A DNA stretch of 64,000 bases from Romanomermis culicivorax (Eukaryota; Nematoda; Enoplea; Mermithida; Mermithidae). The notes under the pieces are model-generated. The model was not told where the DNA came from. It saw nothing but the letters and a program-made list of their open reading frames with translations, and made no database searches. Of this stretch, positions 12,692 through 51,061 are shown piece after piece (position 1 is the first letter of the stretch; each line of letters begins with the position of its first letter). The position numbers were made by a program, and so were the translations under genes. Location of the stretch: contig CAWUHX010000305.1 of the NCBI GenBank assembly GCA_963922205.1, forward strand, positions 310,001-374,000, in the 5' to 3' direction.

Positions 12692-12837
12692 CCAGTCTCA
12701 CTTTGGCGCCTGTCTCAGGCGCCAGTTTTACTATAGCGCCTACTATGTCTTAATAAGCGATGTGTTCTCATCTATGCAAATTTTATGTGTAATTTTACAT
12801 TATCATAATGGCTGCAAATAGCTCATGCAATCATGAA

Positions 12838-13119
12838 TAGCCTAAGCCTAAGCATAAGCCTGAGCCTGAGCCTTAGCCTGAGCCACAGCCTAAGCCTAAG
12901 CCTAAGCATAAGCCTAAGCCTAAGCCTAAGCCTAAGGCTAGGCCTAAGCCTAAGCCTAAGCCTAAGCCTAAGCCTAAGCCTAAGCCTAAGCCTAAGCCTA
13001 AGCCTAAGCCTGAGCCTAAGCCTAAGCCTAGGCCTAGGCCTAGGCCTAAGCCTAAGCCTAAGCCTAAGCCTAAGCCTAAGCCTAAGCCTAAGCCTAGGCC
13101 TAAGCCTAGGCCTAAAGGC
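12838..13119 (-). repeat. Interstitial telomeric repeat array (TTAGGC)n
   Basis: About 47 hexamers read CCTAAG on the plus strand, that is TTAGGC on the minus strand, with scattered substitutions such as CCTGAG, CCTAGG and CATAAG. TTAGGC is the telomere repeat of Caenorhabditis, Ascaris and many other nematodes. The C-rich strand on + is the orientation of a left chromosome end. Variants are densest at the left edge (12838-12920). The array continues in degenerate form at 14047-14172 beyond a transposon. Confidence 0.93.
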
Positions 13120-14046
13120 GGGTATATACTTACCCGTACGCAGGTGCACCCCCGATTTTTGAGCGGGCCCCGCAATTTGCAGCCTGGAAATTGAATGCAC
13201 AATTGTGCGCCGCATTGCGGGTGCCGGGTGAAAAATTTGCGGGACCCAATAATTTTGCGCGTGCGGGCTAGTAGAAACCATTTCTACTTTTTCGCACATC
13301 TGTAATTCATGGGGATCAGGAACCACCGCCGCAGTACAGTAAAGTAATGTTTTTTGCCCATGGCGCACGATTGAACTTCATTTTTGAGCACCCCCCCCCT
13401 GTTGGCGCGATGCGATCGCATGCGAATATTTTTAGCTTGTTTCTGAAAGGGGGGGGGGACCTTTGGACTGTTTCCTAAGTTGGGAAAAACATTTTCGGAT
13501 GCACGGTAGAAAATTCAAAAAATATTACGCGCGGAAAATACATGGCTACTGTGCCTGGCGCGTTTTTAAAGGCAATGTCATATGTTCAGGGGAGGGGCAC
13601 CGTTTTTTTCCCTCAAATGGGGTGTTTTGAGGAAAAAATTTCGAAATGAGGAAAAAAATTTTGGGTATGGTTCTCATTGAGGAAAAAATTTTCGGGAATT
13701 CAAAACCGAAAAGATGCGTTTTGGTGGACTTAAAAGGGTCAAAATCTCAAAATTTTCCGGCGCTTGGCGCCGGTCATGGGTATAATCTTAACTAGTTTCT
13801 ATCAGGCGCGGCCGTTAGCATATCATACTTGTGAACTATCGTTTTTTGCTCATGGCGCACGATTGTACTTGATTTTCCAGCCCTCCCTCACACCCGTACG
13901 CGCACGGTTAAGTATATTCAAATGCGGCCTGCAATGAGGCCGCATGCGCTTTTTTGGCTGAAGTATATTTTGACAACCCGCATTTCGGCCGCACATTGGC
14001 AGGTCGCAAAACTGCCCCGCACGTGCATACGGGTAAGTATATACCC
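13120..14046. mobile_element. TIR transposon inserted in the telomere-repeat array
   Basis: Both ends read inward GGGTATATACTTACCCGTA followed by (C/T)GCA(G/C)GTGC, a ~28-bp inverted repeat, and telomeric hexamers lie on both sides. The 927-bp body has no transposase. It contains a direct repeat of TTTTTTGCYCATGGCGCACGATTG (about 13350-13373 and 13842-13865) and poly-C/poly-G runs near 13389 and 13448. An 85-bp block (13745-13830) is also found inverted in the PDE4 intron MITE. I could not define a clean target duplication. Confidence 0.7.
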
Positions 14047-15092: not shown

Positions 15093-18000
15093 ATGCAAGG
15101 CTTTCTACCACACGTATTATACCAATTGATGGTGAGTGCACCTATTTACATGAGTACAGAAGTAGTATAGAGGGGGGGGGGGCTCGAGCGTAAAATTCGT
15201 CCCCGACACACACAAAACATAGGCGTTTGACTTAGAAAAAAAAGCGGCATCGTCCCCATGTACAAAGTATAGGCAAGCACAGCTAGCCTACACTTTGAAC
15301 CTATTAGTCATCAACTAGCTGCCATAAAGTTTCAACTTTTAGACAGCCAGCTAATAATAGGGGGGAATGGGACCCCTCCCCCTCCCAAGTTTTCCTCATG
15401 CTCAGCTATTACACTATTTAGTAGTTTAAAGAAGAAAGGCATGCTTGCTACTACGTCACCATTTTAAAAAACAACAAGCCTATAAAGAAGGAGTAAACAT
15501 GTTCTCTACTACTACGTCATTTTAGAAAGCATATTCTTTATGCATTTTTTATGTTTTAGTGAAGCCACATTTTTTTCAGTCATCACAAACATTGCTTCGA
15601 GCTCCATGCTTACTACTACGTCACCATTTTTATGAGTACACAATTTTCTTTTATTATGGACTGGTTAAATAAAGAACAAGCACAAAGCACAAAGCACAAA
15701 TTAGCATATTTTACAATTTTAAAGATAAATCAATAACATAGGTCATTTCTTTTGCTAGCGTAAAGACAAAGTGTGCACCAGATAAGGGTTAAATATTAGG
15801 TTTATAGTATAACCATTACTACTTCTTTTGTTATTATTTTTTTCATTTTTTATTTTTTTTTAGTTTTTAATTTTTATCATTTTTTTCTGAATTTTTCATT
15901 TTGATTTTTTTTTCATTTCGACTTTATTCCAAATAGTTTGCAACCAACATAATAACTATGATCACAATGATCAGTTTTCTTTGGTGTCTTTACTCTGAGT
16001 ACTGGCAAAGGATCTGACCCCAATTCTCTAAACTTTCCTGCTTGGACGTATTTACACACAGCATAGTGACAATTATGAATAGGAACTTTTTGGCACAACC
16101 TGCAAGGCTCCATTGCAGAGAATGAATGTTTCAGCTTTCTATATGATATATTTATACCAGTGGGTAGTACTGTAATTGAATTATACTAACACTTGCTCAT
16201 CAAGTTCAAAAATTGACAATTAACTCTTTGAAGTTCTTCTGCAGTTCACCGTAGGTCTTTGCTCCTGTAATAATAATTTTACCATTGTGAAAAATCAATG
16301 CACATAAGCCCCGCTTTTTAATTGTATATTTAAGTGCAGGAAATAATTCGGGAGAATAATCACATTGACCGCTATGAGTGTTATAGAATTCCTCAACATT
16401 GATACAGTGATCTAGGGCGTATGACCCAACAACATTGCACATTTTAAATTTCCTGGGTCTTGGCTGATAACCGAGTTTGAGCAGTATTTCTGCTGCATAA
16501 TCTATACTTTTCACAGCCTGCTGAGTTGCCTTAATGCCCACACATACGACCTTGCCATTTTCGTACAATAGTAGACAACATTTTGGATCATGGAGGTGCC
16601 AAATTAGCGACGGAAATTTTCCCATTGTCAGTTTAGAGCCATCCAATTTTTTAACAAGTGAGACCAAATTGAGTCGACAGCCAAGTTCAGCTGTTATAGT
16701 AATGTTTTGTACTTGCATTTCTAGAATAAACTTCGCTTTCTAAAGTGTAACTTCACAATTGTTTTACCAGTGACAAATTTTATAGGTTTGTCTTGATCTG
16801 TTCTAATTGAAATTTGGATAGAATCGATATCTTTTACCAGTACAGGCAAGTAGTGAGGAGCTATATATATCTTATCTATAATGTCACCAAAAGCTCCCTC
16901 AATATTAACAATATGGAGGAGGGGGGCTAAAATATCACCAGCAATCTGTTGTTCAATAATGTTACAATAAACGTACATAGTTTCGAGACCAGCCTTCATA
17001 TCAGCAGGGTGTGCAGCAGCAATTTTCAATTTTTCAGATGAAGTTGTTTCTAGTTGTGATTTCTCAAAGCCCAACAGGTAGAGTAAAGGATCACTTAATT
17101 TTATGCTCTTGATTCTAGTCAAGTTCACTTTCAGGACAACTGCTCTGGCTAATCTCCTGTATGAAAATTCGATAAACTCATTATATGGAACTTTTTCCTG
17201 TTCACTCAACAACCTGATGGATTGTTGAATAGCTTCAATTAAATCTATTATAGATTCATACCTTGTAGAAGGTACTTTTAGTAATTGCCTAGTATTGGTC
17301 TGAAGATCATAAAATTTTATTACACTATCACTAGGTGTTATATTGAACCACATATTTGGGTAGATGAATTCACAAAGTGCACATTCCCATTCACCTTGCA
17401 AAATCAATCTATGAGGCAACCTGATACTAAAATTTGAAGCCGAGTTACTCGGATCACTCTGAGCATTGCTCGGTAATGTTACATAAAACTGTGAAAAATC
17501 CATTTTTTGATATGTCATTATGGTAGAAACTAACTTTTATATTCTGTTGAGCTGTTCAAATAAAAATGCATCACCATATATGGGAGTATTTGTTCTAAAG
17601 AGACTGTTGATAAAGCCAGTGACAAATTCATCAGCATAGCTTTGTTCCAAACTAGCAGCAATATCCCTCATTCTTATACCTCTGACTATCCACACGAGAA
17701 AGTATACACATAACTGACCACATGTAGCAGTCAAGTACTGTTGAACACATTTGGTATTGCACTTGTAAGAAGTAGATATAGTCTTGATGTAATTCCTAAG
17801 CTGTTGAGGTGGTTCCAGGCCGTAACTGTCAAAATAACAACATGCATGTTTTTTATTGACAAACAGAGCTACCCAGTGTGAACCAGGTTCATCCTGCTTG
17901 TCCAGATTTACAACCAATGCTGCGGGTACAGTGTCAAGAGGTGGTAAACAGTCTATAGGAAATACCCCATTGAAGATTTGCCTGAGAGCTTGATCTCTAT

Positions 18001-21000
18001 TGATCAAGATGTAGATTTCAGAGGTATTCATGCAGTATAGTCATTAAAGACGTGTCTATTTTTATCGATCATAATCAAATTGTCAAATTCTGCATAAACA
18101 ATAACTTCTATACCTGCATCAGGTATCCTATCAGCAAATGTCAATTCGATACTTGTGGAACCATCTCTAATCAAGTCCCAATGTCCACTATCATCTTCAT
18201 CAGGTGTAAAATCGAAGGCAAAGTAGCACTGTCCATTTTTAAAATTAAGTCTGCTAATGCCATTCCCTTTGTTATCCTTAGCCATGTCTAGAGTTTCAAA
18301 GAGCTGATCATACGCTCGAATATATTAGTTGTTGGCTAAATCAAGTCTTAGTGGAGTTGCTGGGAAAGCTTGACCACCAGAGACAACTTTGACTTCGCTT
18401 ATACTGTAACATTTAAAATTAAATGGAGATTTTTTTATTTCTCCACGATATGCATCCGCATCGACACATGCTATAATCATCCTACGTGGCAACTGACCAG
18501 TGAATAGAGTATTCAGAGGTGTAGATTGCGTTGTACTAGCAATATGAAGATTCACCATTTGGATTCGTCTAATTGGGTACTTGACTGATGTCTTTAACAT
18601 TGCTTTCTCCAGAGCCAATCCAACACTGTCGAGCACTTCAACTTTCCTGATGAAGAGTTTCATCTGGGAAACTTCCAATTTTGCATTTTCTGCATCACCA
18701 GCTGGACACTGTAATACAAATGGATTACTATTGCGAATCAATTCCAGTTTGAGCTCAGTATTGCTGAGTAAATATCGATCTTGCATTAGAAGATCAATAT
18801 GAAGAGGAGCTGTTATTTCAACTGTTTGACCATTTTCAAAGTACTTTACTCTGTCTTTAAAACCCTGGCAATCAGCAGTATCTATTTTAGGACCAGCTTC
18901 CATAGTATACAAAGAAGACTGTAAGTGACTATTTTTAGCATCAAAACCAAAATTTAAATCAGTTTCAAAGAATGCTCTGTAGGCATACTTATCCCCACTA
19001 TCATGAATAAGATGACCATTCAGGAAGAGCTTCACTTGTCGGAAAAATGCTTTACCAATCAGATTGATAGGTGCAATTACTGGTGCAGCTCCACCAGCAG
19101 GAACAGTGTAAGTAATTTTCAAGGTCATGTACAGATAATTTTTGCTAAGCTGAATCATGTGAGGATCTGGAGGTATACGAAATTCGTATGGACCATCATT
19201 TGTGATAGGATTTATCGGGTTAACTTCATCCCAGTAGCCTCGTTTAATTACTACTTGTGTGGGAGGTACAGTGAAAAAGTCCAATTCAGACTTTGTACTA
19301 ATGCTAGAAATTGTATCAATTAGAGCCATGTTTCCTTCTCTTTTTCTTTGAGAATATATCATTTTTCTCAACTTTTATACCTTTTGGTCTAGTCCCCAAG
19401 CCTCTCCCAGTCTGCAAGGCCTCTCCCGCTGGGCCAACTTGGAGAGTGCTGCTCGGCCATGTTCTTCTAGAGACTCTTTAATAGATCGACCTTCGGCTAA
19501 ATCTCCAGCAATATGTGCACCTGTAGATAGCGCTTGCTTACCAATATGGCCAGCAGCTGACTTAATAACAGGAATGGCCATTCTGAATAATGATCTAAAG
19601 AAGCTTCCTAGACCTCCTCCACGTTGATAGGGTGTGCCTTTGAAGCCTTTGAAACCATAGCCAGTTTGTTCAGCTTGTTCAGTATAGTACTGAAGCCAAG
19701 TTGCATAATCTTCTGGATTAAAGTATTGTCTCATCTTTATAAATTTACAAACTACTGTAAATTACAACTTTTATGCTTTTCCAAATTCTAACCATCTAGG
19801 CCTTGGTGTAATGCTTTTGGGTGCCTTAATTTTTTTACCATCTACGGGTCCACTCGGGGAAGCAAATGTTTCATCACTTTCACTTCCAACATTTAGCCTG
19901 GACTTATTTACAAAAAGATCTCGAGGCACATTCTCCTTTAAGAGGTTCTTTACAAACAATTCTGACCCTATTGCTTGCTGGCGCCTCGGACCAACTCTCG
20001 CCACATCAGAAATCAAATCAACAATGTTGGTTCCACTTATTTTGGTGCCTTTCAGAATCATTTCTTGTTTATCCGACCACTCCATGTGTGGATTATCTTT
20101 GGCATAATCATATAACATTTTAGCTTGACTATGCCACTTTTTTGGTACAATTTTCATGGTTTTTTCATACAGAACATCTTTTCTCGGGATCACATCAACA
20201 GGGCTTTCAGCAGTGTCTGGCTTTTTTTGCTTCGGTGTTATTTCTTCCAAATCAGGAATGGGGTGTTCTGCAACAGGTTCACTAACAGTCAGCTCATAAG
20301 GTCTGGTTTGATCCTGCGTAGCCTGCCTATATCTGTGCAACACTTGATTGTATAAGATTATCTTTTTGTCAGAGGGCAATGACTTATTAGTTAAAATGTC
20401 ATTCATTTCTTTATCCAAAGCAGTCATTACATTAGCTGCTATGTCTTCCCTATGACCAATGTCGTGCGGTACAAGAATCATTTTATTTGTATGCATCATC
20501 TTTTTATAATTGCATCAGCTAGTAATTGTCCAGCTATTCCTAAGATTGGTGCCAACAATACAGGCAAAAATCCACCTTTATGTTCTAGAATGTCTCGTCT
20601 TTTGCTGAGACTTGTTTTCTCATCTGCTAATACTCGTAAATGTCCCTTGTGGGAACTTAATTTATTCAAGGTATTTTTGTCAACTTTTATATTGCCTTCG
20701 AGGAAGTTGAGTATACATTCACACAAATAAAGTATCAGTTCACGATCAGTGGTGCTAATAATAGCTTTACGTTGCTTGGGTTTAGCCTTAGCTAGTACCC
20801 TGATGTAATCAATATTATGTCTAAGATGATCACAAGGCATTTTGACTATAAAACTCAAGAATAGACAACTTTTATACTTTTGGCACATATATCGTGGAAA
20901 ATTTTGAGAAAATATCAGCTCTGAGTCTAAGTTTATCAGGTGTTGTTTGAGAAAGATCAACAATTATATAACTGTATGGTTTAAACGTGGCATCTTCGAA

Positions 21001-24000
21001 GGACTCGAGAAAGTACTTTACTTTATCAGGAAACAACTGTCTTGCCAAAGTTTTTACTTGGAGCCTATCTGCAGGATTTTTCATCAAAACAAGGTACTCT
21101 GCATTTATTCTAGATGTTCTTAGACCCTCGAAGAAAACATTTTGAACAATGTGTATCACAGACACATTCATGTGATGACATCCACGAGTAAAAAGAATGT
21201 CCAGGTGCTTATTTTTAGCCATTTCCTGCATGAGATCATCTAGTATAACAAGTTGGGGTGCAGGACTGAGCTCTCTAATCAAGTTCATGTCAGGTAATCC
21301 CTGATAGAAGTTGACTCTGCCAGACAAGTCATTGTAGACTGGCTGCTTCTCACTAAAGAACCAGTGAATATGTTCAGGAATGGGTTCAATCAAGTACTTC
21401 ACATTTAGTACTAAATTCTTTACAAAGGTTGTTTTACCCGCTTTTGCCCAACAATACCCAACAATACATGTAAAGGGGTGATTAAATTTTATAGCCATGT
21501 TTTTTTTTTCAATAGATTCTCAACTTTTATAACATGCGACATGCTGGAAATACCAGCAATTGTGCTTTGATTTCTTTTTTTAAAATTTTTTTTTCTTTAA
21601 ATTTTTTTCTTGTCTTTTATTTTTCATCACAATATTTAATTACAATTATTACAATATTAATAGGGTATATCTACACCTTCATCATTGTATTTTTGTACAG
21701 CCTCTGGAGTAAGATTCATCCAGATCTCAAAAAGAAGGGGTCCAGCACTACAAGTTTTCATCAAACCCTCTAGTGCCTTGGCAAAATGCCAAAACCCAGT
21801 CAGCTTTCTCTTACCCGTACAATGATCCAGCTCATTGGCCACTTTAGCCAAAATCTTCCATTCACGCTTGTAGCCATCATTTATTCGATCCCAAAAATAT
21901 GAGGCATATCTGGCCACATCTTTTTGAGTATAAGGTCTTTTGAGAAAAGTGCCCATACTCAGTGCAACATTTAAAAAAATACCTTCCATTTTGAAAAAGT
22001 GACTAAACTGTAGAAGGAAAAGTTTGAAGACTGAAGACTAAGGAGAATTTACAACTTATATACATAAAAAATGTTACAGAATACTTGCAAATCTCATTTC
22101 ACTAGTTTACTGTAGGCTTCAAGATGAGTGCCTGTCTATCAGCTAACTGTTTCTTTAGTACAGCGGTGCCAGCTTCCTGCAATGCCTTATTGTATTCTAG
22201 ACATTTTGGGCACATTTCAATAGTAAAGAATGTTTTGCCCTGAGACAACTGGAAACACTCCCATTCAGAGCTGTTCTTTTGACAAAAGTAACACAGTTCA
22301 ATCATCAAGGGATACATGGCTCTTGGCAAGTTTCGAGCGCAGAGTTCAATAGGAGCTTTAACTTTTTTCGATTCCATTCTAGTTAATCAAATGATTGAAA
22401 TAATTTTGAAGTTGCTTATATACTGAAATATCAGGCACATGTAAAAATTTTTAGACCTGCAAATCATTGTTTAATTTTCATACTGTAGCTATAGTTTTAT
22501 CAAATCTGTCACCCAACTATTGAATTTATCTGGGTGACCCTTCCATTTAACAAAGTATTCAGTTTTCCCAGCCCTTTTTCTCTTTCGTATAATCTTTTCT
22601 ATAATGCAGACATCTGTAATCTCATCAACTTTCTGTAATTCTGGCTCATAAAATACACCCTGTATGACTTCTCCCAGCTGATCTTCTACCGTATATACAG
22701 GAGGATATCTAGCTTTTTGCTCACGAATCACAAAAACTTCATCACTCCAATTGGGAGTGTAACCCTTCTCAAAAGTCCCTTTGACTTTGCTTATGCGTAC
22801 CTTGTCACCAGGGACCAGTTTAAATTGTAAACTATACTTACATTTCCTGAAAAGCTTTTCAACAATTTCAGCTTTATTCTCATCAGTAACATCAATGGGA
22901 GCAACACCTATGGTCCTATGCCTAGTCAAGTTGTAAGAGCTTAGCAGGTGGGGTAGAATGTTTAGGTACTTGTATGCATTATTTTGAGTAAAATGACGCC
23001 ACATTCTTTCCTTTAAAGTTCTATTGAACCGCTCAACAATGCTAGCCTTAGTTTCACTAGCAGTTATGAAAAAACTAATGCCAAGTTTCTTTAATAGGGC
23101 CTCGAAGGCTTTGTTTGTGAACTCTGTACCAGCATCAGTCTGTATTTTTTGTGGCTTTCTGCCAGATTTCAAAATTGTTTGAAAGGCATGCAAAATAGAT
23201 GATGTATTTTTATTTTTCAAGGGTACAGACCATGCAAATTTTGACAGGACATCTATACAATTTAAAAGGAATTTGTATCCATCATAATGCCTGGCGAGTG
23301 AACTGAGGTCTGCAAGATCCATTTGCCACTGTTCATCAATATCAGTAACTAGAACATTATTCCTGGGGTAATGGCGCCTAGCATACTTGTTTACAGTATA
23401 TGTTGGCTGTTTCTGTAACCATTCCTTAACAGAATGCAGAGTGACCCTGGGATTACTAGCTTTTGCCTGTCGTAACAGGTTCTGAACACTACAATACCCT
23501 GTACTTGGGTTGAAGTATATGCTTTCAAAGAGCTTGTCCATTTTTTCAAGCATGCTGCTGTCAAACTTTTATTTATACATCTGCAAGATTGAATCTGACA
23601 CTTTTTGTACTAGTTTTAGGTTTTTTGGTGAACAGGTTCTCCAAATATCTCCTTAACAATTTCAATAGAGTCAGTATTGTTAGTATAGCCAATAGAGCCA
23701 CACAATACCATATCTCAGTAAAAATTGTTTTCCCATTATGCCTTTCCAGACAAGCTAGAAAATGTTCAATAGTGTGGTTAGCATCCATTTTTTTTCTTCA
23801 TTTTAGAGAGCCAGCCAACTTTTATAGCCAGCAATCAATTTTCAAAGAGAGTCAGTTGTTGTTTATTTACCTAAACTTTATTGATTGAAAACCTTCCCAC
23901 TACATGAAACATTTTATGTAGATGAAAAAATGGTTAAGTCTGGCATATTTTTCCACTAGTGAAAGTAGCACGAGATCAAATTTAAAGAGCAGTGAGGTAC

Positions 24001-27000
24001 AGTATTAGAAGCTCAAGTGATTCACATGCTCATTGTTGTGAATCAAGGCCAGCTAAAAGGCAAGAAATACTTTTATACAAAGATAGTTGGGAAAATGACT
24101 CATAAGGTGACTGCTTGTCTAAAGAAAAGTGACGTAAGCAAGAAAGTTTTTATATGTGCATTTTGATTGAATTTGACTTGAAAGACAGATCAAAAAGTGA
24201 GATAAGAAAAAACCAGAAAAAACCAGTTTATTTCAGTATGAGTCATCAGAAAAAGTGAGAAAGATGTGACATTTGATGGAATAGATCAGTAGGTTTTGCT
24301 GTTCCACTAAGCCTACAGTAATCCTGCCCATAAGAGTATAAAAGCAAAAAAATTTGAGGAAAGCTCATTTGTGATTTTTATCAAGTTAAAGAAAGGTCGG
24401 ATTGTTAAAATGGATGTTAAAAATTTTTTGTGCAACAAATGTGGAAGAAGCTTTGGCGAAAAACGATATTTGAATGGACATATGGCTTCATCACACGAAG
24501 GGAGACGATTCGAATGCCCTCAATGTGGCTCAATGTTTACACAAATGAAAGGATTGAAGAATCATTACCAGAAACAACATCAAGAATTTAATTGCCTGTA
24601 TTGTGGAACCAGCTTTTGCAACCAACAAGCATTATTTTCCCCTATCCATAGTAGTAGCTGCTTGATGGTCAAACCAGAAGAGGGAAATTCAATGGAATTG
24701 ATGGATGAAAAACCAACTACAAATGGACTTATGATTCTGGAAGATGAAGAAACACCAATGGAGCTGAGTGCATACCCAGAAGAAATGCAGAGAGAAATCA
24801 ATAATTATTGGCGACTTATTCGAACCAATCAGTCCACTTCCAACCTACTGGAGCATACTTACAATTATAGATGGGCGGCTACCAATGGAGACCTTACAAG
24901 GATGATTTACAACATTTACCAGTCAGAAAAGGAATGTTTTCGTGTTGATGCTGCAATTGGATGCTTGTTGAAAAATCGAGAAACAGGTGAGTACAAATAT
25001 TGGTATGCATGCCAGAATAACTATACACTGTTAAACCATCCTATTTTGATCAAAAATGGGGGGGATGTGCAGCAATTAACTGGGACTATGAAAAAAATTG
25101 ATTTTGAAGAAAAATTTACATGCCCTGATACAAAATGGTCTCTTGCCCTCATCACGAATGTTGAATTCTATGTCATGCCACAAAAAAGCTTTGTGGCTGG
25201 TTGCAAAGACTTCCATTTACCTAACCCGCTCATCTACCAGACCCACAATATTATTGGTATGACCCAAGATGGCCAGAGAAACAGATTTAAAGATAATCTT
25301 TGTCTTTTTCGTTGCTTAGCCCAAGGAATTTTTGGCAGTTTTGAAGATAAAAGGCGTGTTTTTGAGCTCTTTTTAAAATATTGCCAAAAGAAGAATATCC
25401 CATCAGTTGTAGATACCTTTTCTGGGGTTCCATACACAGATTTGGAAATGATTGAGAAATTATTCGTCATTGATATACAGGTCTACCACTATGATCTTGC
25501 TAAAAATATGGCCATTTGCTGGAAAAATGTTATTCCACAATATGAAAAACTTATAAATTTGGATGTTTCATTTGATGACAGTAGGCGTGCCCACTATAGT
25601 TATATTGTCAATATAGATCAATATGCAAAACGGTATTCTTGTATTTTTTGCAGTCGTCTCTTTAGAAAACGTGAAAAACTTAATGAGCATACAAAAGACC
25701 ATTGCCACGAGGGTAAAACAATCCATAAATTTCCTGGTAGTGTATATACAGTGAAAAAATCCGTTTTTGAACAGCTAGATGAAATAGAAATTTTTGTAGA
25801 TAGAACATATCGTTTGTGTCCCTTTTATGCAGTTTTTGACTTTGAAGCCCTTCTTGTAAAAACTTCTAAGCAAACATCTGATAAATTAACTTTTGTTGCT
25901 CAGCATCAACCTGTATCATGTGCTATAGCAACTAATATTTCTGGATTTGCTCCAATTTGTTTTGTTGAAGATGATCCAGATGTTTCGGTCCAAAAAATGG
26001 TGGGTCATCTAGAACTGATTAGCTTCAGACAAAATTAAATTTTGACTAATCAGTATAACTCAGTATTCCAATGTTTAGAAGGTATGATAGAAAGTTGTAA
26101 GGCCTACATTGAAGAACTGTATGATCAAAAAAAAGATTCCAGGCGGGAAAAGGGACACCTCAACTCAATTATTGCAATCAAGACACGCCTTGAGAGGTAC
26201 TGTTCCCAGCTCACTTGTTTGGGTTTTAATTCAGGAAAATATGATATTAACTTGATAAAAAGAAGTATTTTCCCAAAACTTGTCCAGCAAGTGCGAGAAA
26301 ATGGGGAAGGACCATGGCCAAAAGCAATTTTGCGAAATGGGTCCTTCTTATGCCTTTCTACCAAAAGTCTCAGATTCTTGGACATCTCCCTGTATTTAGC
26401 CCCTGGTTTTAGTTTAGACACCTTTATGAAGGCTTATGGGGCATCCCTTAGCAAAGCCAAATTCCCCTATGAGTATTTGGATGCTTTTGAAAAGCTTTAT
26501 GAAAAATCACTGCCACCCCCACAAGCATTTTACAGTTCTTTGAGAAAAGAATCCATTTCTGATGAGGACTATCAACTGTGCCAAAAGTACTGGAGAGAGA
26601 ATGGAATGGAAAACTTAAAAGATTTTTTAATTTTTTACAATCTTCGGGATGTTGTGCCTTTTCTAGAAGCTGTTACAATGATGATGAGGCTTTATTGGGA
26701 CCAATTTGGAATCAATATTTTCAGAGAAGCAATGTCTCTGCCTGGGGTTACTGAGAGATACCTGTTCAAAAGCATTAAAGACACACACTTGGCCCTCTTT
26801 TCTGAAAATTCAAAAGATCTTCATTATTCCTTAAAATCCAGTATGAGGGGTGGTCTGGCGATGGTGATGACCCGACTGGCAATCAAGGATAAGACATTCA
26901 TTCGGAATAATCCCAAAAAACTAGTCAAATCAATAATTGGGCTTGATTTTAATGCCCTCTACCTCTGGGCGCAGTCTATGCCTACACCCACAGGATTTTT

Positions 27001-30000
27001 TGATCAGTGGGTCTGTCAGGGTGAAAAATTTCAAAAAGTAAACAGTTCTAAAAAAGTTTCTGTTGAATGGTTAGAAAAGATGAGTTGGGAATGTGGCCAT
27101 TTCATTCAACACCTTGGAAATGGCAAAGAAAAGTGCATAGGCCTGAGGCATTTACCTGTAGATGGTTACTGCCAGGACACGAACACCATATATGAATTTT
27201 ATGGGTGTTACTGGCATTGTCACAACTGCAACTTCAGCAAGCCAAATAAACAAAAGGATAGCAATGATGAGCATGCTAAAAGAGAGGAAAAGGAGGCATA
27301 TATAAAATCACTAGGCTACAACTTGGTAACCATCTGGGAGTGCCAATGGGACAACCAGCGCCAAGCTTACATTAATCAAAGAGCTAAATTGTGTTCAAAT
27401 TTTTTTAGAAAATTTCAATTTCAAAAATACATTAATAAAAATCTTATGGAAAAATCAATTACAGATGGCTCTGTTTTTGGGTTTGCAAAAGTCGATATTT
27501 CTACACCAGACCATCTAAAAGAAAAATATGCCGATTTTCCTCCAATAATAAAGCATGCAGAAGTGGGCCGAAATGATGCTGGTGACTTCATGAAGCAGTA
27601 TGCTGAAAATACCAACCAGCTAAGACAACCAAGAAAAAACCTCATCAGTAGTTACTTTGGCAAAGAGATCATGGTTTCTACACCCATGATCCAATTTTTG
27701 GTAAAACATGGTCTGATACTTGATAAGGTCCATGAAGTTATTCAATTTGACGAGGCAACACCTTTTGAAGCATTCCGTGACAAAGTTACCAAGCACAGAT
27801 GGGAAGGAGATACCAATCCCGAGCTAGCAATGATTGCTGATACGTTTAAATTACTTGGCAACACAGGATATGGAAAAACATTGACCAATAAGGAGAGTCA
27901 TATGGACGTCTTCTACGTAGATTATGAAAAGGCTGCTGAGCTAGGCCTCAGCCCTTACATCAAGAAAATAAAATGCATAACTGAAAAGTGTTATGAAGTC
28001 CACATGCGGAAAAAAGAAATTGTTTTAGACTTGCCCATTGTAGTGGGCCTTTCAGTCTATAATTGGGCAAAGGTCAGAATGATGGAGTTCTTCTATGATG
28101 TGCTCCAAAAGTATTTTGACCCTGCTGATTATCAGTGTATGGAAACAGACACTGACAGCATCTACCTCGCAATATCAGCTGAACACCTTTTGGATATTGT
28201 AAAGCCAGAACTAAAAAGTGAATTTTTGACTCAAGTCTACCCGAATTGGTTTGTGACAAACCCTGAACAGAAACAAACCCCTGGATTACTGAAAGAAGAA
28301 TGGCGTGGAACAGCTATGTGTTGTTTGTCTGCCAAAACATACATTGGGGTCGGAGAAGGTGAGAAAAAGACAAGTTGTAAAGGTCTCATGAAAAAAATAA
28401 ATGATCTCACCTTTGAAAAATATCTTTCTGTTCTGGAGACCAGGGAACCCTGGAATGGTGAAAATATAGGGTTCAGGTTGCAGGGAGACAGCAAAATATG
28501 GACGTACATGCAACAGAAGCAGGGTCTCCCATTCCTTTATGTAAAAAGGAAGGTCTTAGATGATGGCATAACAACTGTGCCATTGGACTTATGAATATTT
28601 TTTATTCTTGTTTTTTTATTATTCTCATATCTTTTCTTATTCTCATATTTTGCTATATCAGCTCCTACAATGTAGGAGTCATTTTTTTTTACATATTTAT
28701 TTATCATTTTTATGTGTTTGTATTTGTCTGTTTTTATATGTTCATGTATTTGTCTTGCTTCTGCTATGCAGAAGTAAAGCTTCTACAGGGTACTAGGTGC
28801 ATGGTGAGGAGCCAATGACGGCCTAGGGTCAGGCAGAAGCCAGCAGTGTAATGGCGCCAGGTGCATGGTGAGAAAGCCAATGACGGCCTGGAGTTGGACA
28901 CTGCGAGTCATACTATGTATGGCGGGTGTCTTCTGTAAAAGGGAGGCACTTGGTGTCACATATGTACAGGCCTCCACGTGGCTGACACTGGGGCTGGCCC
29001 AAAAGGTCAGTGCTAATGGGTACATAATAACTATAACATACATTCATATATAATACACAACTAACAAAAAAAAGAAAATGTTGGTGTAGAAAAAAAACTT
29101 ATTGGCAAGGTTGCTACATAAGATAATGGTAAACTAAGTTAAATTTAACCAATTTTTTTTGGTAGGAAAAAGGTAATTCATACAGTGATGAGCAGATAAC
29201 ATGAAAAAAGTAGACTAGTTGTAGAGTACTACATGATTGTTATGTGGTGGGAGAAAATGAGCTTATTGATTGCTGAAGAAATATACTACTTGATGCTCGG
29301 TACTTTGTGCTTGTTTTGTTGACTGAAAAAAACGACATCGATTGTAAGTAGAAGTATAAAAAAACAAAACATGACATTGAAAGGTGCTTTATTTAACCAG
29401 TCCATAATAAAAGAAAATTGTGTACTCATAAAAATGGTGACGTAGTAGTAAGCATGGAGCTCGAAGCAATGTTTGTGATGACTGAAAAAAAATGTGGCTT
29501 CACTAAAATATAAAAAATGCATAAAGAATATGCTTTCTAAAATGACGTAGTAGTAGAGAACATGTTTACTCCTTCTTTATAGGCTTGTTGTTTTTTAAAA
29601 TGGTGACGTAGTAGCAAGCATGCCTTTCTTCTTTAAACTACTAAATAGTGTAATAGCTGAGCATGAGGAAAACTTGGGAGGGGGAGGGGTCCCATTCCCC
29701 CTATTATTAGCTGGCTGTCTAAAAGTTGAAACTTTATGGCAGCTAGCTGATGACTAATAGGTTCAAAGTGTAGGCTAGCTGTGCTTGCCTATACTTTGTA
29801 CATGGGGACGATGCTGCTTTTTTTTCTAAGTCAAACGCCTATGTTTTGTGTGTGTCGGGGACGAATTTTACGCTCGAGCCCCCCCCCCCCCTCTATACTA
29901 CTTACAGAAATCTTCAAAGAATTTCTTTCATAGATCATCCATTTAGCAATTTGCTTACGAATGCGAATGTTTGGCGGCGAGAGAGCCAACATATTAAAGA

Positions 30001-49443: not shown

Positions 49444-49943
49444 AAGTCCATCTTCTGTGAAGAAAATTGGCGGGTGCTTTGCGATGTTGTGGATTTGGAG
49501 AGAAGCGACGAGTGCGGTGATAGCGGGATCAGCGGCCCGTGCTCATGAGACTTCGTCATGGCAGGCGATTGTAATGGCTTCGACTGGGGGTGGCGCCTAA
49601 TCGTGGCCAACGGCATGTGATTGGGGAATGTGGGTTGACTGATGGTCTTTTTGGTCATTGCACTAGTGATGGCATTGACTTCCACGTCAATTTCCTTGGG
49701 TGGTGAGACCGCTGCTGGGAGTATATGGGGTACCGTTAAGTCAGCGTCTGATAATGCATCAGCAGGATGAAAATTTTTCCCGAAAATTTCAGCGGTCAAG
49801 TCTTCAGTATTCGGAGTTGATGGTTTATCGCAGTCATCTTTCCTGGACAAGAAATCAGCGCAAGCGTTGTCTTTGCCTTTGACGTATTCAACCTTGTAGT
49901 CGTAGTCTTGAAGGTTGATAGCAAAGTGCTGGAGGCGTGAGTT

Positions 49944-50375
49944 TCAGTATTTTTCATCTTTGAGCCATTCAAGCGGCTTGTGGTCGGTATGAACGATAAT
50001 TTTTTGGCTGTATACGTAGTGATGGTACATTTGAAAACTGTAGATGATGGCGAGACATTGGCGTTCCGTTGTACTGTATCGGGTTTCGGTGTCAGTAAGT
50101 ACGTGGCTGTTGTAGGCGATGACCCATTGATCGTTGCCAGTTTCCTGGCACAAGATTGCTCCAATGGCGGTTGTACTGGCGTCAGTTTGGATAGCAAATT
50201 GCGCTTTGCTGTTGTGGACCGGGTAACGGGGGAAAGGCATTGACCTGAGAGCTTTTTTGATGTCTTCGAAAGCGGAAGGGTGTTCTTCAGTGGTGATGTA
50301 TTGGGCGTCTTTCCGTAAAGTCCATACAATGGACTGGACCAGGTTGCCAATTTTGGGATAAATCGCCTGCACCAT
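49944..50375 (-). pseudogene. RNase H domain of the retrotransposon
   Basis: In frame: [16 protein letters not shown] (first Asp), [18 protein letters not shown] (Glu), [11 protein letters not shown] (Asp). This is typical of Ty3/Gypsy RNase H. It is shifted relative to the RT frame, with the join near 50310-50350. Confidence 0.8.
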
Positions 50376-51061
50376 TGAACTAAACCTAAAAAACTTTGCA
50401 TACCTTTCTTGGTAGTTGGGAATTTGTACTCGGTGATAGCCTTGACTTTATCCCGATTGGCAGCGATTCCATTGGCATTAAGAAGATGTCCAAAAAATTT
50501 GACTTGCGGTGGCAGGAATTCACATTTATCGGGCCGGAGCGTAATATTGGCAGCTTGGAGGGCATCGAAAACGATTTGCAAATGTTCCAAATGTTCTTCA
50601 AATGAATTTGAGAAAATGATAATATCGTCGATGTAAATGAGGCAAATTTTCCATATATATGGGCAGAGAATTCGTTCCATCAAACATTGAAATTCGGCGG
50701 GTGCGTTTTTTGAGCCGAACGGCAAAACCTTGGATGGAAACAAACCTTTTTGGCAGCTGAAGGTTGTTTTGTTGCGGGAGTCGTTGTCGAGGGGTACCTG
50801 CCAGTACCCAGCTTTGAGATTGAGGGTGGTGAAAAACTTTGCTTGTCCCATCGCGTCCAAGTAATTGTCAATGCACCGAATTTGGAATTTGTCGCTGGGC
50901 GTGACATCGTTTATTCTGCAATAACCAACAACAGGTCGCCATGAACCATCCTTTTTCTTTACCAGGAACAGCGGTGCCGCCCAGGGCAAGCGGGATTGTT
51001 TGATAAAGTCGCTGTCGAGCATTTCCTGGATATGGGGGCCAATGATGGGTCTTTGCTCCAT
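50340..51061 (-). pseudogene. Reverse transcriptase of the retrotransposon
   Basis: From [13 protein letters not shown] through [15 protein letters not shown] [14 protein letters not shown], the fingers-palm motif [25 protein letters not shown], the active-site motif YIDDIIIFS and VKFFGHLL, to the thumb [13 protein letters not shown]. Catalytic Asp residues are present. This segment is open but its neighbours are not: an in-frame stop lies just upstream near 51090 and RNase H is in another frame. Confidence 0.88.

Follow-up and report, generated by a model that had tools for sequence, protein, structure and literature searches.

A full-length Polinton with a TBP gene

We analysed a window of 64,000 nucleotides from the nematode Romanomermis culicivorax (contig CAWUHX010000305.1, positions 310,001 to 374,000). 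Positions 15161-29902 of this window are a full-length Polinton/Maverick of 14,742 bp, and a gene for a TATA-binding protein (TBP) lies within it at 16206-16718 on the minus strand (170 aa, intact frame). The element is flanked by two copies of the target site duplication TACAGA, read from the letters at 15155-15160 and 29903-29908. It is bounded by terminal inverted repeats of ~514 nt, the left one starting with AGTAGT (15161-15674, plus strand) and the right one ending with ACTACT (29387-29902, minus strand). AGTAGT is an end motif reported for vertebrate Mavericks (PMC8097293; cited, like the other papers below, from excerpts). The repeats are identical at 511 of 514 aligned bases, with short indels in addition; their alignment begins pairing at base 15160, which is part of the target duplication. 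Along with the inverted repeats and the 6-bp duplication, the element has the PolB, rve integrase, A32-type ATPase and adenovirus-type protease by which Polintons/Mavericks are recognized. An earlier note on this DNA had placed a TBP gene inside a Polinton, and the repeats, the duplication and the gene set bear this out.

The profile PF00352 scores the element TBP at 130.4 bits in two stretches (cut-off 22.9, E = 2.2e-38), confirming the two-repeat TBP core that had been noticed at 16206-16718. In a phmmer comparison, residues 2-165 match human TBP (4.8e-28), and the predicted fold is the saddle fold of the TBP family. Archaeal TBP models of NCBIfam match under their own cut-offs (best 113.2 against 181). 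The gene has no intron, and its product is 32-34% identical to the human and E. cuniculi proteins.

Residue numbers are those of human TBP, with which the window protein aligns in structure without gaps (window residue + 162). At human F197, F214, F288 and F305, the intercalating positions, the element TBP has F, Y, F and F; three of the four are kept, as the earlier note had counted. The base-contacting Asn and Thr positions read N, V, N and T. Across both sets 6 of 8 residues are kept, and both changes lie in lobe 1. The protein thus retains N167, N257, T313, F197, F288 and F305, plus E286 of the TFIIB contact, and carries the changes F214 to Y, T222 to V and E284 to S. Lobe 1 of TBP reads the 3' half of the TATA box; given this, the F214 and T222 changes would fit an unusual 3' end of the box.

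On the surface that meets other factors, we considered positions 184, 189, 191 and 205, which we take to be TFIIA contacts of human TBP, as we also assume the TFIIB-contact positions. All four TFIIA positions are unlike human, both in the window TBP and in the TBP of a relative of the element, the locus L001 described below. In a helix-2 patch whose positions were our choice, 5 of 7 differ in kind from human in the window TBP.

The other genes of the element are on the minus strand unless stated. Downstream of the TBP gene lies a 66-aa Cys-rich open reading frame (ORF) (15913-16113) with no match in Pfam or NCBIfam. The TBP gene starts 2 nt beyond the end of the penton (PX-like) gene (16721-17518, 265 aa), which gives nothing above the Pfam cut-off and matches L001 ORF 6143-7201 by tblastn. 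The adenovirus-type protease (17537-18031; Peptidase_C5, 22.3 bits against a cut-off of 21.3) is followed by the major capsid protein (MCP) gene (18028-19329), which appears as two same-frame ORFs (18325-19329 and 18028-18285) split by a stop. The MCP has 268 relatives; PF21738 was found in 5 of the 120 listed, and the nearest is 75% identical among the matches listed. Naming the MCP as a putative double jelly-roll capsid protein and the penton as such rests on homology, for the penton also on position. A 119-aa gene (19375-19734), a 242-aa gene (19771-20499) and a 114-aa gene, g114 (20496-20840), are conserved in L001. The packaging ATPase (20872-21498) matches Pox_A32 with E = 1.3e-4 and 22.0 bits, 0.8 under the curated cut-off of 22.8, and is 36% and 52% identical to two stretches of L001. 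Beyond it lie a 110-aa gene with no assigned function (21657-21989), a gene for a 91-aa protein (22102-22377), an rve integrase with a chromodomain (22489-23553; Pfam) and a 71-aa ORF with a hydrophobic stretch, gTM (23573-23788), whose first 66 residues have no Pfam match. The PolB gene, with N-terminal C2H2 fingers, lies on the plus strand (24410-28594) and also appears as two same-frame ORFs (24371-26038 and 26042-28594) split by a stop. This copy is damaged. MCP and PolB each have one stop in frame; the reading frame of the TBP gene is unbroken.

A set of TATA boxes upstream of element genes

The same box had been described before about eleven genes of the element. Of 14 element genes, 10 have a match of at least 9/11 to the consensus TATAAAAGTTG within the 90 nt before their start, which upholds the shared box; the exact 11-mer precedes only four of them (MCP, g114, ATPase and gTM), and a fifth exact copy (first base 20691) sits within the g114 coding sequence. 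Gene starts were set at the first ATG of each ORF, with a later ATG for MCP, PolB and g114. The same count in 500 dinucleotide shuffles had a mean of 0.90 and a maximum of 4 (1.04 and 5 in an earlier run). Random windows of the element gave a mean of 1.28 and a maximum of 6 in 2000 draws, and random flanking windows 0.24. Without the 66-aa ORF and gTM, which were chosen with the boxes in view, 9 of 12 genes have such a match. Among nine control ORFs inside the element (8 overlapping or antisense ORFs and the MCP tail), none has a match of at least 9/11, and 2 have TATAWAW.

The plainer pattern TATAWAW precedes 12 of 14 genes at a distance of up to 80 nt, the exceptions being the protease and the 119-aa gene (shuffle mean 1.07, maximum 4 of 14 genes in 500 shuffles). 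With the 66-aa ORF and gTM removed, the count is 10/12 against a shuffle mean of 0.87 and a maximum of 4. Because the consensus TATAAAAGTTG was derived from these same sites, we repeated the box test with each gene left out of the model. Ten of the 14 genes scored at p<0.05, the misses being the 66-aa ORF, the 242-aa gene, the 91-aa gene and PolB. Exact words point the same way: TATAAAAGTT occurs six times in the element, always on the minus strand and once inside coding sequence, and never in 49,256 flanking bases, and TATAAAAG occurs 8 times against once in those flanks. The contrast is weaker for plain TATAAAA (17 in the element, 26 in the flanks). By these data, TATA-type promoters are common to the element genes to a degree far beyond chance. 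As a rough yardstick only, 5% of planarian promoters were reported to have a TATA box (PMC10558129).

The boxes, on the minus strand unless stated, were located by motif scan. The one listed earlier at 16149 is TATAAATATAT (16146-16156, 7/11), lies 43 nt before the 66-aa ORF and belongs to that ORF. The candidate for the TBP gene is TATAAAATTTG (16774-16784, 10/11), within the penton gene and 66 nt before the TBP ATG, with p 0.010 under a box model built without it. For the protease gene the sole candidate is TATAGAAGTTA (9/11). Full 11/11 matches to TATAAAAGTTG lie at 19369-19379 (MCP), 20866-20876 (g114), 21521-21531 (ATPase) and 23816-23826 (gTM), and 10/11 matches at 17531-17541 (TATAAAAGTTA), 19765-19775 (CATAAAAGTTG) and 22052-22062 (TATATAAGTTG). 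At 23563-23573, AATAAAAGTTT (9/11) adjoins TATAAATA, whose first base is 23577. The remaining boxes are TATAAAAAGAT (20498-20508), 9 nt before the first ATG of the 242-aa gene and 27 nt before the next in-frame ATG, TATATAAGCAA (22412-22422) and, on the plus strand, TATAAAAGCAA (24337-24347), 73 nt before the PolB ATG. Of the boxes listed earlier, those at 20500, 22412 and 24337 stand as TATA boxes and lack the TTG. PolB and the 91-aa gene have the variant TATAWAAGCAA in common, two cases being too few for a class. Distances from TATAWAW to ATG run from 9 to 73 nt (50 for MCP); for the penton gene, the 242-aa gene and the integrase, where they are short, the next in-frame ATG as read from the sequence gives 27-38 nt. 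Extra TATA boxes lie between gTM and PolB at 24077 and 24154 on the minus strand (TATAAAAGTAT and TATAAAAACTT), with no clear downstream gene.

A distant relative and other TBPs

An MCP-alignment scan of prokaryotic genome contigs gave 29 matching stretches and, from them, a sole locus, L001. This is the 11,589-bp contig JAJRVU010000309.1 in a metagenome-assembled genome of Planctomycetota whose title, Dive96, suggests a deep-sea source. It matches the window in MCP (37%), penton, protease, ATPase, integrase and three more genes, and its ATPase likewise appears as two ORFs. No PolB was found on the 11,589-bp contig, which is presumably incomplete. L001 also encodes a TBP, 34% identical to the window TBP (E = 2.6e-30; PF00352, 1.9e-45), with both TFIIB-contact Glu kept. 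The gene adjoins the ATPase ORF on the opposite strand, with 33 nt between the ORFs, and its place therefore differs from that in the window. The 91-aa protein at 22102-22377 (minus strand), which has two CxxC pairs 23 residues apart, is related to L001:1813-2100 (plus strand) by BLASTP (E = 2e-6 in a single comparison). Of the 18 L001 ORFs, 8 have TATAWAW no more than 80 nt upstream (7 with alternative starts), against a shuffle mean of 0.58 and a maximum of 3 in 500. Hence the TBP recurs clearly in L001, and the TATA promoter set only in part.

L001 also has a palindrome, GAGTGTC-N(2-4)-GACACTC, at 1095, 1149, 9712, 11489 and 11538, three copies being just upstream of TATA boxes; this palindrome was not found in the window.

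When the window TBP alone was compared with the protein collection, none of 26 candidates reached E<=1e-5, and scans of viral contigs with the TBP, the MCP, a PolB piece, the integrase, and TBP and MCP alignments gave no relative. A profile of the window and L001 TBPs found 18 proteins, including L001's own (P0121). Six of them, P0122-P0127, group with L001 in a tree of 22 rows, with support of 98/98; the longest contig of each measures 1-4 kb, and they are likely Polinton genes. This tree left out P0121 (the same protein as L001's), two partial fungal rows and P0135. It places the window TBP outside the cellular/archaeal side (92/92, unstarred), nearest to P0136 and P0130-P0134 (87/80). A clade of the window TBP and the L001 set is absent from the best tree and is not rejected (p 0.138). 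Holding the window TBP with eukaryotic TBPs is borderline in the approximately unbiased (AU) test (p 0.045), and holding the L001 set there is not rejected (p 0.262). In a 14-row tree that also left out P0130-P0134 and P0136-P0138, a branch with 94/100 (unstarred) sets the window, L001 and the six metagenome TBPs apart from the other rows, a value that rests on the chosen rows; here the window TBP held with eukaryotic TBPs is not rejected (p 0.233). The window branch is long in both trees (1.06 with 22 rows, 2.25 with 14), which were built without TLF/TRF2, mirusvirus and Nucleocytoviricota TBPs. Neither tree places the window TBP firmly; a single origin of the TBPs of the window, L001 and P0122-P0127 is favoured, though not proven.

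Position 222 is V, L or I in nine rows (the window, L001, P0122-P0127 and P0136, the last put among the Polinton-type rows on account of that very letter) and T in human, E. cuniculi and Sulfolobus; elsewhere it is N in P0130 and T in P0132 and P0137. The residue after 305 is His in the window, L001, P0122-P0127 and several others, and Val or Ser in the human and archaeal rows. P0130, P0131, P0133 and P0134 make up a TBP-like family of 217 aa, extended at the N-terminus, whose closeness to the window TBP in the 22-row tree is not firmly supported. At F214, P0130 carries Y.

A possible promoter-selecting role for the element TBP

We propose, with a probability of roughly 0.55, that the element TBP uses its DNA-reading face to load onto the TATA boxes of the element and recruits host TFIIB and RNA polymerase II. 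Host TBP or TFIID would drive the first element transcripts, after which the element TBP would bind the TATAAAAG(TTG) boxes, mostly 23-73 nt before genes, perhaps including its own candidate box and so feeding back on its own gene. Once on DNA, it would draw in host TFIIB and RNA polymerase II. Since the TFIIA positions and a large part of the basic N-lobe patch have changed, the TBP-DNA complex may evade regulators of the host, Mot1 and NC2 for example, and may favour element promoters. In favour of the proposal are the TBP profile and predicted fold, the base-reading residues that are kept, the box statistics of this element, the TBP of L001, the change at T222 common to nine rows, and a TBP frame that is intact next to MCP and PolB frames with stops. 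Pfam found no TFIIB or RNA polymerase domain in the 14 element genes, a strongly diverged TFIIB being possible; therefore the host enzyme must be used. For the same reason we dropped an autonomous transcription system, and the earlier suggestion of transcription perhaps free of host control is not supported. The observation behind that suggestion is confirmed and its interpretation partly supported.

Several points weigh against this proposal. Host TBP binds TATAAAAG, and therefore host TBP alone could serve the boxes. In L001, only 3 of the 10 ORFs related to window genes are preceded by TATAWAW (shuffle mean 0.14, maximum 3), which in one case stands 7 nt before the ATG. No copy lies within 80 nt upstream of the L001 genes for TBP, MCP, penton and protease, nor was the TTG of the box seen upstream of L001 ORFs. 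Both Polintons compared carry a TBP, so that a link between TBP and TATA promoters is only presumed, and this copy is damaged. Recruitment of host TFIIB is the weakest step: E284, one of two TFIIB contacts, is S in the element TBP, and such changes were read as loss of host TFIIB binding (PMC7221094).

We considered the TTG as a conserved promoter part and TATA promoters as a constant feature of this lineage. Both ideas were dropped or weakened, the former since L001 is without it and the latter since few of L001's shared genes have TATAWAW.

The boxes could instead be ordinary strong TATA boxes for host TBP/TFIID, with the element TBP doing something else, for example acting as a competitor of host TBP or sequestering host factors so that host transcription is dampened. 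TATAAAAG is a good site for any TBP, the paucity of TATAWAW before the shared L001 genes persists despite the L001 TBP, and Pfam found no TFIIB or polymerase in the 14 genes. A decoy that binds factors, however, needs the reverse of what we observe, namely a DNA-reading face kept in two TBPs only 34% identical and TFIIA positions that are changed. We consider this account somewhat doubtful.

A wider version of our proposal holds that an old Polinton lineage (the window copy, L001 and perhaps the six metagenome TBPs) keeps the TBP as a promoter-selecting factor with a dedicated TATA set, self-feedback, host TFIIB and RNA polymerase II, a changed T222 contact and blindness to TFIIA, Mot1 and NC2. 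It is possible and we hold it only tentatively; the sparse TATA boxes before the shared L001 genes count against both this version and the narrower proposal.

That the TBP is a recent capture of a host gene, hitch-hiking in this copy with no function for the element, is very unlikely. Although its tree placement leaves room for such an origin, as the AU values with 22 and 14 rows illustrate, the distant L001 has a TBP too, and a fresh capture would sit poorly with the missing intron, the low identity to human and E. cuniculi proteins and the T222 change common to the window TBP and the L001 group. The grouping of the window, L001 and six metagenome TBPs in the 14-row tree also argues against capture, with the proviso that it is absent from the best tree of 22 rows. 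Very improbable, in our judgement, is a minimal initiation pair in which an element-encoded partner, perhaps the 91-aa protein, replaces host TFIIB. Its two CxxC pairs, its L001 relative and the change of E284 to S would suit such a partner, but it has no Pfam or NCBIfam match, its fold model is too poor to use (predicted local distance difference test, pLDDT, 49.5), and the L001 TBP keeps both Glu contacts.

The element resembles vertebrate Mavericks/adintoviruses in its protease, ATPase, integrase, PolB and 6-bp target duplication and in its putative MCP and penton, and differs from Polinton/Maverick elements in carrying a TBP gene. Words starting with TATA or TBP are absent from the texts of PMC8097293, PMC4028283, PMC11071308, PMC11071296 and PMC11244446. 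A literature search of titles, abstract starts and passages found no report of a Polinton-borne TBP; its coverage was partial, without the adintovirus founding paper and with database annotations outside its scope. Within that scope, the literature agrees with the earlier note that giant-virus TBPs are known and a Polinton TBP is not known as described.

Viral TBPs were reported in seven families of large dsDNA viruses (PMC11410667) and in 59% of mirusvirus genomes (PMC10132985). The latter source has 0% of Nucleocytoviricota in its TBP cluster, at odds with PMC7221094 and PMC11410667; the methods of the papers differ. According to PMC7221094, viral TBPs keep DNA contacts and lose regulator contacts, loss of the N-lobe signature being read as escape from Mot1. 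They are read there as unlikely to bind host TFIIB, and nearly all TBP-bearing large viruses, poxviruses excepted, also had a TFIIB-like protein. The element TBP is like them in its two lobes, its kept DNA contacts and its changed host-factor surface. In contrast, those viruses are far larger than this 14.7-kb element, in which Pfam found no TFIIB or polymerase. For Cymbomonas, sporadic TBPs were reported from viral elements that have no genes for PolB, packaging ATPase or a double jelly-roll capsid (PMC10675990). ORF24 of Kaposi's sarcoma-associated herpesvirus, a TBP mimic for late genes, steers host RNA polymerase II to viral promoters; it is a multidomain mimic that reads TATTWAA and has five viral partners (PMC12529657). 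Like ORF24, the element TBP is a virus-supplied factor of TBP type, for which steering of the host polymerase is only proposed; unlike it, the protein consists of the TBP core alone and was recognized by an ordinary sequence search.

Virus-encoded TBPs have so far been tied to large DNA viruses, mostly with TFIIB; here a 14.7-kb transposon-virus has a bare TBP and a TATA promoter set. On the wider version of our proposal, this would be, within the literature covered, the smallest mobile element that itself encodes a general transcription factor. If the proposal is true, it would represent a minimal route by which an integrated virus takes over host initiation, would bear on Polinton expression, and would offer a natural variant TBP for testing which surfaces matter in host regulation.

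Outside the element, the window has a long low-complexity stretch at 12823-13368, where overlapping frames give Arg-Leu, Ser-Leu or Gly-Leu repeats, and a reverse transcriptase ORF (PF00078) at 49796-51061 on the minus strand, probably from a retroelement. Trypsin-domain fragments lie at 30140-30894 on the plus strand, ~240 bases past the right end of the element. Together with a cyclic nucleotide phosphodiesterase fragment, also in the window, they fit an animal genome.

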